Positions 59,681 to 63,382 of a stretch of 64,000 bases of DNA are shown piece after piece. This DNA is from Maricaulaceae bacterium EIL42A08. Its GTDB lineage: Bacteria; Pseudomonadota; Alphaproteobacteria; Caulobacterales; Maricaulaceae. Both the position numbers and the translations under genes were made by a program. The stretch is from positions 390,527 through 454,526 of the forward strand of contig JAMZNZ010000003.1 in the NCBI GenBank assembly GCA_024178355.1, written 5' to 3'. Under the pieces are notes generated by a model that made no database searches, was not told the origin of the DNA, and saw only the letters and a program-made list of their open reading frames with translations. Within the stretch, counting starts at the first letter, position 1. Each line of letters starts with the position of its first letter.

Positions 59681-59760
59681 GGGTTTAAAAAATGAATTAA
59701 TTCAGTTATTTATAATAGTTTTGAATTTCATAAATTTACAAGCTTTTGATTGAATAGAAG
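59681..59760 (+). promoter_or_regulatory. AT-rich promoter region before the pentapeptide gene
   Basis: A strikingly A/T-rich stretch in a GC-rich genome, with a perfect -10 TATAAT at 59711-59716 and a 10-base palindrome GAATTAATTC just upstream; no good -35 at normal spacing. Confidence 0.35.
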
Positions 59761-59790
59761 AAGACATGTCATCTTGAGGGCGCGTCATGA

Positions 59791-60864
59791 GTGTATTCAA
59801 CGAAGCTGCGGATTCCAGGTTTTCACAGCACGAACGGTTTGTACGAGGCGTTATGGGTGGCGCGCGGCTGTCTCAACGGCCTGGGCGTCATCAATGACGG
59901 CTGCCCAGCCCTTGCTGCTCGCGAAGACTCCAGCGGGCGCATCATCAGCCGTGGTTGCCCCGTGGCCGCGATGGTCGTGGGCGACCACGTTAAAGCCGCG
60001 ACCGGCGAGGTGACGGGCAAAGCGCTCATACCGCGCGGTGCCGATCTTTATCGGTCAAAACTGGATGGCGCTGATTTTCGCCAGGCGGTTCTGGTTCGGG
60101 CCGACCGCGATCCAGGCCTGGTACCAGCGGGTCTGAATTTTGACGAAGACGGCGACATGAAGGGCGGAAACGTCGATTTTCGCAACTGCTCCATGGTGGG
60201 CGCTCAGCTCGGGAATGCAAAGCTCAAAGGGGCTGACTTCAGTGGTGCAAACCTGCACGGGGCCGACCTGTCGGGCGCTGATATCCGCGACGCCAACCTT
60301 AACGGTGCCATTCTGACAGCGGCCAACCTTGAAGGCGCAGCGATTGACGGCGTCACGATGGAAAACGTGCTGCGTGATCCTGACGCCAAAGCGCTTGCCC
60401 GCGCTGAGGACCTCCGCTCACGTATCGAAGCCAATGACACTTACACCCATTCGCTGGGTAAAAAGGGCAAGCGCGGGCGCTTTGACGGTGAAGATCTGCG
60501 CCCCCTTGGTGATGCTTTCCACAAGAGTGGCCTGGTCGGCGCGACCTTTAAAAATGCATGCGGCGTGGGTCTGAATTTCAGAGGGGTGATATTGATCGGT
60601 GCGTCCTTTGAAGGGGCGGACCTTCGAAATGCCCGTTTTGAGGGGGCTGATCTTCGTGGCTGCAATTTCAAGAACTGCAATCTGAACCACGCCGACTTTT
60701 CACGCTCGGAACTCACCGCGTTCGATGGGATGTCAGGGCGTCGCTTCCCACCGAACTTTTCTGGCGCAAGCATGCACTCGACCAATTTTGATGAGGTGGT
60801 GCTGGAAGACGATATGACGCTGAATGAAGTGCTCGGCCTGAAGCCTGCGCAAAAAGTGGCGTAG
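59791..60864 (+). CDS. Pentapeptide-repeat protein with chimeric N-terminus (gene probably disrupted)
   Basis: 357 residues if read from GTG 59791. From residue 84 on it is a pentapeptide-repeat protein (A[DN]LxG units: GADFSGANLHGADLSGADIR, later SFEGADLRNARFEGADLRG) forming right-handed quadrilateral beta-helices; such proteins often act as scaffolds. Residues 23-83 come from a 181-base exact copy of antisense esterase DNA. The best ribosome site (GAGGG) serves ATG 59787 in another frame, which stops at about 59898. Deleting the 181 bases joins ATG 59787 to the repeat frame, giving ...VRGVMGADLYRSKLDGADF. So the original gene likely ran 59787-60864 without the insert; whether the GTG rescues it is open. 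Confidence 0.7.
   Translation: MYSTKLRIPGFHSTNGLYEALWVARGCLNGLGVINDGCPALAAREDSSGRIISRGCPVAAMVVGDHVKAATGEVTGKALIPRGADLYRSKLDGADFRQAVLVRADRDPGLVPAGLNFDEDGDMKGGNVDFRNCSMVGAQLGNAKLKGADFSGANLHGADLSGADIRDANLNGAILTAANLEGAAIDGVTMENVLRDPDAKALARAEDLRSRIEANDTYTHSLGKKGKRGRFDGEDLRPLGDAFHKSGLVGATFKNACGVGLNFRGVILIGASFEGADLRNARFEGADLRGCNFKNCNLNHADFSRSELTAFDGMSGRRFPPNFSGASMHSTNFDEVVLEDDMTLNEVLGLKPAQKVA
59858..60038 (+). repeat. 181-bp exact direct repeat, copy A (inserted)
   Basis: Identical base for base to 61532-61712, in the same orientation in the window, 1674 bases away. In this copy the sequence interrupts the pentapeptide gene near its 5' end. No terminal inverted repeat, target duplication or transposase. 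Confidence 0.95.
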
Positions 60865-60897
60865 CGGGCGTCAGTCGCGCTGCCCGATCATGCAGCC

Positions 60898-61833
60898 CTA
60901 CCCCGCCTGCGCCGCGACGCGTTCAGCCCAGTTCGCGAAGTCATCCATCGCCTGCTCATAGCCTTCGTCATTAAGCGTCTCGTGGCGGCCCTTAGGGTCG
61001 AAGCGCATCGTCGCGTCAATAAAGCGGGCGTTGTAGAGCCGGGCTTTAAGCGTATCCATGGCTTCACCCTTGTCGGTGGCGGGGTCCTCGCCGCCGGCAG
61101 CCATGTGAATGGGCAGATCAAGGCGCATCATGCGCGTACGGTTCTCATCCGAACCGCGCTCCACCAGCTCGATAAAGTCGCGCCATAGCGAGATTGAAGC
61201 CGGTGCGCCGCACAGCGGATCGTTGATGTAGGCGTCCACCTCGTCAGGAATACGTGACAGCCAGTCAAAGTCAGTACGGGCGTCTTTCACCTGCTTGCCC
61301 CAAGCCTTGAACGCCAGCGCATCCATCCAGGTGGAGGGGGCCGTCGCCTTCTTGAACAGGCCTTCGATGCCAAGCACGGTCCTCATCAGGTTTGCCCGGC
61401 TACCGAGCGCCAGATTGGCATTCCAGACCGCCAGCCCTGCGATCTCGCCCTTGCGCTCCTGGGCGTGATTCATGGCGATGACGCCGCCCATGGAGTGTCC
61501 AAAGACGATATGGGGCAGCGTGCCGAAATGCTGGCGCGCGGCTGTCTCAACGGCCTGGGCGTCATCAATGACGGCTGCCCAGCCCTTGCTGCTCGCGAAG
61601 ACTCCAGCGGGCGCATCATCAGCCGTGGTTGCCCCGTGGCCGCGATGGTCGTGGGCGACCACGTTAAAGCCGCGACCGGCGAGGTGACGGGCAAAGCGCT
61701 CATACCGCGCGGCGTGTTCTGAAAGGCCGTGGTGAATCTGCACCGTCGCGCGCGCTTCACCTTGTGCGGCAAGCCTGCGCCAGGCAAGGCTGGCTCCAGA
61801 GGGACTGGACAGGGTTTCGGCCTGGAACTCCAT
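60898..61833 (-). CDS. Lysophospholipase/monoglyceride lipase-like alpha/beta hydrolase
   Basis: 311 residues from ATG 61833 with AAAGGAAAA upstream; an extended frame to 61929 would overlap glpK. Hydrolase_4/serine aminopeptidase S33 fold: HHGLSEHAARYERFA, VVAHDHRGHG, nucleophile Ser114 in FGHSMGG, acid in MAAGGEDPATDKG and His in KGRHETLNDE. Monoacylglycerol or lysophospholipid hydrolysis is typical. Codons for residues 41-101 lie in the 181-bp repeat, where the frame is intact, so this is the source copy. Divergent from glpK (70-base gap), and glycerol release would suit that neighbour. Confidence 0.9.
   Translation of the reverse strand: MEFQAETLSSPSGASLAWRRLAAQGEARATVQIHHGLSEHAARYERFARHLAGRGFNVVAHDHRGHGATTADDAPAGVFASSKGWAAVIDDAQAVETAARQHFGTLPHIVFGHSMGGVIAMNHAQERKGEIAGLAVWNANLALGSRANLMRTVLGIEGLFKKATAPSTWMDALAFKAWGKQVKDARTDFDWLSRIPDEVDAYINDPLCGAPASISLWRDFIELVERGSDENRTRMMRLDLPIHMAAGGEDPATDKGEAMDTLKARLYNARFIDATMRFDPKGRHETLNDEGYEQAMDDFANWAERVAAQAG
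61532..61712 (+). repeat. 181-bp exact direct repeat, copy B (source, inside the hydrolase gene)
   Basis: Part of the hydrolase coding sequence read on the opposite strand. Exact partner of 59858-60038. Because the hydrolase is complete and conserved here, this is taken as the donor. Confidence 0.95.
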
Positions 61834-61903
61834 GACGGCTTTTCCTTTGTGGGTGGCTTGGCTTAGCTTTGGGCGCAGCATAACCGATGAGAGGCGATCT
61901 GCC

Positions 61904-63382
61904 ATGGCCACACCTGCGCTCCTTGCCATTGATCAGGGCACCACATCCAGCCGGGCTCTGGTGTTTGATTTGAAGGCCAATCTGATCGCCAGCGCGCAGA
62001 AGGAATTTGCCCAGATCTACCCTGAGCCGGGCTGGGTGGAACATGACCCGGAAGTGATCTGGGCGACCGTCCTGTCCACCGCGCGCGAAGCGCTGAGCAA
62101 GGCCGAAGACCAGGGCTTCGAGGTGCAGGCCATCGGCGTCACCAACCAGCGCGAGACCACCATCGTCTGGGACTGCGCCACAGGGCGGCCCATCCATAAC
62201 GCCATCGTGTGGCAGGACCGGCGCACCGCGGATGTGTGCGCGGGCCTGCGTGCGGCGGGGCATGAAAAGCTGATTGCGGAGCGGGCAGGGCTGGTTCTGG
62301 ACCCTTACTTTTCGGCCACTAAGCTCGCCTGGATCCTGGACCATGTGCCCGGCGCAAGAGCCAAGGCTGAAGCCGGGTCGCTCGCCTTCGGGACCGTGGA
62401 CAGCTTCCTGGTCTGGCGACTGACCGGCGGCAAGGTTCACGCGATCGAGGCAACCAATGCCAGCCGGACGAGCCTCTACAGCCTGGCGAAAGGCGATTGG
62501 GACGAGGAGCTTCTCGATATCTTCAACATCCCGACTGCGGTCCTGCCCACCGTCGTCGATAGCGCGGGGGAGATTGGCCACAGCGAGGCGTCTATCTTTG
62601 GTCGCGCCATTCCCATCACCGGCGGTGCAGGCGACCAGCAGGCCGCCGCCATCGGTCAGGCTTGTCTAAAGCCGGGGGAGATGAAATCGACCTATGGCAC
62701 CGGCGCCTTCATGCTGGTCCATACCGGCGAGGAGATTGTCACCTCCACCAACCGCCTGCTCGCCACGACCGCGTGGAAGATCAAGGGCGAGAGCCGCTAC
62801 GCGCTGGAGGGCTCTGTCCTCTCCGCGGGGGCAACGGTTCAGTGGGTGCGCGATGGTCTGGGCCTGATTGCCAAGGCGAGCGAGATCGAAGCGCTCGCTG
62901 CGGACGCGGATCGCGAAAGCGGGGTCTATCTGGTGCCGGCGTTTTCAGGGCTCGGTGCGCCCCACTGGAACCCGGACGCACGGGGCGCGCTGGTGGGCCT
63001 GACGCGGGGCTCAGGCCGGGCGGAGATCGCCCGTGCGGCGCTGGATTCGGTGGCCTATCAGACCCACGACCTCTTGGTGGCCATGGCCGCTGACGGGGTG
63101 GAGGTGTCCACCCTGAAGGTGGATGGCGGCATGACGGTCAACAACGCGCTGATGCAGCGCCTCGCCGATCTGTGCGCGGTGGAGACGATCCGCCCGCGCA
63201 ACGCCGAATGCACCGCCTGGGGCGCAGCCTTCCTCGCAGGGCTGGGAGCCGGGCTCTACAGCTCTATCGAAGATGCCCGCGCGCTCTGGCGCGAAGACCG
63301 CCACTTCGTGCCCGCCATGGACCCGGTCACCCGCGCCCGGCGGCTGTCGGGCTGGGCCGATGCGGTCAAGCGGGTCCTTTGA
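61904..63382 (+). CDS. glpK: Glycerol kinase GlpK
   Basis: 492 residues from ATG 61904 (GAGAGG upstream). FGGY sugar kinase: N-terminal AIDQGTTSSRALVFD, PEPGWVEHDPEVIW, NQRETTIVWD, ATNASRTSLY, GGAGDQQAAAIGQACLKPGEMKSTYGTGAFML, and LKVDGGMTVNNALMQRLADL. Makes glycerol-3-phosphate. Length typical (about 495). No glpD or glpF beside it; next to a lipase-like gene on the other strand. Confidence 0.96.
   Translation: MATPALLAIDQGTTSSRALVFDLKANLIASAQKEFAQIYPEPGWVEHDPEVIWATVLSTAREALSKAEDQGFEVQAIGVTNQRETTIVWDCATGRPIHNAIVWQDRRTADVCAGLRAAGHEKLIAERAGLVLDPYFSATKLAWILDHVPGARAKAEAGSLAFGTVDSFLVWRLTGGKVHAIEATNASRTSLYSLAKGDWDEELLDIFNIPTAVLPTVVDSAGEIGHSEASIFGRAIPITGGAGDQQAAAIGQACLKPGEMKSTYGTGAFMLVHTGEEIVTSTNRLLATTAWKIKGESRYALEGSVLSAGATVQWVRDGLGLIAKASEIEALAADADRESGVYLVPAFSGLGAPHWNPDARGALVGLTRGSGRAEIARAALDSVAYQTHDLLVAMAADGVEVSTLKVDGGMTVNNALMQRLADLCAVETIRPRNAECTAWGAAFLAGLGAGLYSSIEDARALWREDRHFVPAMDPVTRARRLSGWADAVKRVL

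Follow-up and report, generated by a model that had tools for sequence, protein, structure and literature searches.

An exact copy of antisense esterase DNA in place of 72 codons of a pentapeptide-repeat gene in an Oceanicaulis lineage

Described routes to short templated replacements

Under the name SPDIR, Harms et al. reportedly described in 2016 the replacement of a short stretch of a gene by a non-homologous copy from elsewhere in the genome, with the donor left unchanged. The tract is reportedly short, with microhomology at both junctions, and the process RecA-independent and raised in exonuclease or dprA mutants; in Acinetobacter, loss of recJ or dprA raises events of this type. SPDIR is also named in PMC7192050. 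In homology-facilitated and double illegitimate recombination (PMC4437187), DNA is integrated with the help of a one-sided short anchor, or needs no homology at all. The papers found on microhomology-mediated template switching, or templated insertion, mostly concern eukaryotes.

The locus studied here lies in a stretch of 64,000 nucleotides of the marine Maricaulaceae bacterium EIL42A08 (contig JAMZNZ010000003.1), called the window in the following. We consider it likely that a recent templated deletion-insertion took place in this Oceanicaulis lineage, in which about 216 bp of a pentapeptide-repeat gene were replaced by an up to 181 bp long copy from an esterase gene 1.67 kb downstream. Illegitimate recombination or a template switch is the best reading of this event. 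As in SPDIR, a non-homologous genomic copy has taken the place of a short part of a gene while the donor is unchanged. However, the tract of up to 181 bp is longer than SPDIR tracts are reported to be, and both recJ and dprA are present in this genome with scores over their cut-offs. Because a short homology is supported at one junction only, we do not class the event as SPDIR. Integration helped by a one-sided short anchor, or needing no homology, is shared with the recombination outlined in PMC4437187, but there it is described for externally taken-up DNA and the anchor is a homologous one, whereas in our case the donor belongs to the same genome, at a distance of 1.67 kb, and the anchor spans only about 10 bp. 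With template switching the locus shares a nearby copied template and short homology at a junction; it differs in being bacterial and in that about 216 nt were replaced, rather than sequence being added only.

In natural genomes short templated replacements are difficult to spot, since donor and copy drift apart. At this locus one can read the donor, the site, the extent of the loss and a likely homology at one junction, which makes it a worked case of coding DNA overwritten by a copy of another gene, and of the way in which accidents of this kind inactivate genes and, less often, give rise to chimeric ones. It is most likely a clean natural example of an already known kind of mutation, and this case alone leaves the knowledge of the mechanism unchanged.

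The repeated tract and its donor

Comparing the window sequence with itself shows that positions 59858-60038 equal 61532-61712 in all 181 bases, as a direct repeat with a spacing of 1674, so that the exact copy claimed in the original prediction is confirmed base for base. This pair is the sole repeat of at least 40 bases found in the window. Searched against the entire genome (2,992,446 bases in six contigs), the tract is placed at two positions, both with 100% identity, and a plasmid collection searched with 59700-62000 gave no match. Transposition of a mobile or dispersed repeat was rejected on the basis of these genome and plasmid searches.

Repeats were further surveyed in C2:1-454526, which comprises 390,526 fetched bases and the window (454,526 bases, 15% of the genome). 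Twenty exact repeats of at least 25 bases were found there, and the 181-base repeat exceeds all others in length. Its flanks are unrelated (14/60 and 10/60 matches), whereas the five other exact repeats of at least 32 bases lie inside longer diverged repeats with flank matches of 42-53/60; a second exact repeat of at least 32 bases with unrelated flanks was not found in this 15% of the genome. The survey also revealed clustered diverged direct and inverted repeats at C2:74292-94518 (loci L175 and L176), with exact cores of 25-90 bases within longer similar stretches, which perhaps represent related mobile or integrase-like genes. In addition, a short dispersed repeat (25-30 bases, core CCCGGA...TCCGGG) occurs in both orientations at C2:34431, 308519 and 342656 (loci L173, L187 and L189) and resembles a small family of palindromic repeats between genes.

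The downstream copy (61532..61712) lies antisense within an intact alpha/beta hydrolase (Hydrolase_4) gene on the minus strand (60898..61833, the start being put at 61833 by orthologue alignment), where it covers approximately residues 41-100 of the esterase. An FGGY carbohydrate-kinase gene comes after the esterase gene. The esterase could be aligned over 307-311 of its 311 residues in all 13 genus loci, with 61-83% identity and in twelve of them without gaps. With sensitive search settings, tract-like DNA was found in 18 out of 19 loci of relatives, always within the esterase reading frame, while the nineteenth (L145) contains no esterase in the part compared. Under the same sensitive settings none of the six loci holding the pentapeptide gene has tract-like DNA inside that gene. 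Since the esterase is conserved over the donor region in all 13 genus loci and tract-like DNA occurs only inside the esterase, the esterase gene is the donor, and the reverse direction, with the pentapeptide gene as donor, was rejected on the same evidence. The claims of an antisense esterase copy and of an intact esterase as its source are thus supported, and the tract is absent from the pentapeptide gene of all relatives examined.

Zero differences in 181 bases correspond to a divergence below about 1.7% by the rule of three. The nearest relatives diverge by approximately 18-23% at this locus, which dates the copying event to after the separation from the species compared.

The recipient gene, the lost segment and the junctions

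The recipient gene encodes a pentapeptide-repeat protein (PF00805, 133.7 bits with a Pfam gathering cut-off of 20.2). It resembles such proteins also in that its intact orthologue is modelled as a repeat helix, and a PDB search returned pentapeptide-repeat structures generally, plus IcmE. It differs from the named pentapeptide families, falling under every NCBIfam cut-off listed: the closest model, the Alr5209 family, reaches 118 versus a cut-off of 125 with the orthologue, and the Qnr and MfpA models score far under their cut-offs. According to PMC12864828, YjbI, a pentapeptide protein of Caulobacter, has its site of action at the cell surface.

High-scoring orthologues were found in four of 14 other genomes of the genus (G001, G003, G013 and G011), among whose members are Oceanicaulis sp. 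HTCC2633 and Oceanicaulis sp. MMSF_3324. In three of the four the orthologue adjoins the esterase gene as in the window, while the copy of G011 lies elsewhere. At this locus the DNA identity is highest with G012, at 77% and 82% over two pieces, and in this 90% complete genome only paralogue-level matches to the pentapeptide gene were found. The third-position G+C content of the pentapeptide gene (59787-60861) is 0.48 in the native 5' end and 0.61 after the tract, compared to 0.74 in the esterase gene. Because of this lower content and the presence of an orthologue in only four of 14 genomes, the pentapeptide gene may be moving horizontally or may often be lost.

To the left of the tract the native 5' end of the gene is preserved (59787..59857, plus strand), as its N-terminus, HERFVRGVMGG, corresponds to HEAFIAGRAGG in orthologues, and to the right follows the rest of the pentapeptide-repeat part including the stop codon (60039..60864, plus strand). 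Two anchors were compared: the conserved GG that follows the N-terminal helix, and the position matching the alanine of ADLYR. The spacing between them is exactly 72 codons (216 nt) in all 16 distinct homologues (19 of 19 rows of the alignment). In the window the same anchors are only 178 nt apart (59862-60039). Hence approximately 216 nt were replaced by the antisense copy of the esterase (59858..60038, plus strand), with a net change of -38 nt and a frameshift; a few bases at each end of the copied tract may be the recipient's own. The donor was kept while recipient DNA was lost at the site, as in a templated deletion-insertion.

The rows of the alignment are the G001 protein and 18 loci, namely the 16 loci L142-L147 and L149-L158 from one set of matches (L148 is the window itself) and, out of another set of 80 loci, only L064 and L065. 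L142 duplicates the query, and L064 and L065 are identical to L150 and L152 over the segment shown, leaving 16 distinct homologues. By our reading of the scores these are eleven orthologues and five paralogues, with L153 as a borderline case. Four-letter pieces of the chimeric segment occur in L149 (two) and L154 (one), which we take as chance.

The missing 72-codon piece was not moved intact to another place. When the genome was searched with this segment of the G001 orthologue, ten weak matches were obtained, all in pentapeptide-type frames or low-scoring, and the best of them (E 2.6e-10, 40% identity) lies in a paralogue on C6. Relocation was rejected, because these matches represent paralogous pentapeptide repeats.

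At the junctions the homologues had to stand in for the ancestor, whose true junction bases may differ. On the right side the last twelve bases of the donor share 6, 9, 8 and 10 of 12 positions with the four Oceanicaulis orthologues, values that are reached by 8.3%, 0.2%, 0.7% and 0.1% of positions in the respective orthologue genes, while seven more distant homologues show an unremarkable 3-7 of 12. The short GC-rich homology on this side reads ATACCGCGCGG in the donor and ATACTGCGCGG in the orthologue of L145. The left junction gives 4-7 of 12, a chance level reached by 5-53% of positions. This comparison thus supports a putative short homology at the right junction and lends no support to one at the left.

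A DNA end or a single-stranded fragment could have paired at the short GC-rich homology on the right side, after which the donor sequence would have been copied or incorporated; a strand primed at the right would copy the donor leftwards, and sealing at the left end might have needed little homology or none. A single event explains this most simply, the alternative being a deletion and then a separate copying event. No match to Ku (PF02735) was found in the genome, with one of 14 control genomes positive, which disfavours Ku-dependent end joining with capture of a fragment.

Reading frames and alternative explanations

A ribosome-site-like GAGGG, judged by its resemblance to the consensus only, lies at 59776..59780 on the plus strand, 6 nt 5' of ATG 59787 and 10 nt 5' of GTG 59791. 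Starting at the ATG the native frame runs for 36 codons to a TGA (59895..59897), whereas the GTG opens a chimeric frame of 357 codons (59791..60864, plus strand); within the tract this is the antisense frame in register with the codons of the esterase. The GAGGG, both start codons with their frames and the stop are as originally predicted. A scan for promoters and terminators gave one site each, both on the minus strand and in numbers at chance level. Because the native ATG reads only 36 codons to the stop, the pentapeptide gene was probably inactivated, and the claim of a gene disruption holds relative to the native start.

The best surviving alternative to a biological event is a chimera of the assembly or library, in which the gene would be intact in the strain and the tract would stem from chimeric fragments or from an error in gap filling. 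The perfect identity of the two copies would fit such an artefact, and a run of approximately 100 N near C2:266427 reveals that the assembly was scaffolded, but this scaffold gap is 184 kb distant. Moreover, repeat misassembly joins repeats which exist already, whereas here the repeat itself, two junctions and a loss of 216 nt would have to be invented. The gene order around both genes is otherwise as in the relatives, and the genome has a completeness of 99.99% and a contamination of 0.06. The assembly error that had been suggested is still conceivable but unlikely, and less likely than the biological event. At the scaffold gap (locus L185) the edge of the N-run coincides with the end of a 28-base direct repeat (copies at C2:266114 and 266399), and thus the gap may hide a tandem repeat.

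A natural one-step replacement of coding DNA by a long antisense copy, with one-sided short homology and no Ku detected, may by chance have kept a frame open behind a ribosome-like site. Its product might then be a gene just born, whose N-terminus is of antisense origin and has not yet acquired a substitution; we regard this as unlikely. Even more improbable, in our opinion, is a working chimeric gene, whose product from GTG 59791 would be made and kept by selection. The 357-codon frame with GAGGG 10 nt upstream and the confidently modelled C-terminal repeat domain (mean pLDDT of 77-96 in the blocks of 131-350) speak for such a gene. However, of 1596 windows of 60 codons drawn from 50 coding-proxy ORFs within the window, 914 are open in the codon-aligned antisense frame (compared with 279 and 208 in the two remaining antisense frames), so chance opens such frames often, the open chimeric frame is no sign of selection, and frame openness was rejected as evidence for a chimeric gene. 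In addition, zero substitutions since copying leave little time for selection to show. Residues 1-77 and 104-122 of the chimera model have a pLDDT below 50, whereas the first eleven ten-residue blocks of the intact HTCC2633 orthologue average 79-94; as both models are based on alignments of five sequences and orphan segments often score low, this low N-terminal pLDDT is weak evidence. The proposed new chimeric N-terminus finds no positive evidence in these results, its openness being expected by chance and residues 1-77 being modelled below 50.

The weakest alternative, the originally claimed simple insertion of a 181-bp templated copy into a gene already without the 72 codons, is extremely improbable, for although 181 is 1 mod 3, as had been stated, and deleting 181 bases joins both frames, all 16 distinct homologues, five paralogues included, hold 72 further residues between the anchors instead of running from the N-terminus directly into GADLYRSKL as predicted. 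The deletion would rejoin the frames but would not give back the ancestral gene, and the agreement of the frames is a one-in-three coincidence.

The same genome still contains a full-length pentapeptide-repeat paralogue, a 437-residue open frame at C6:6742-7725 (locus L017).
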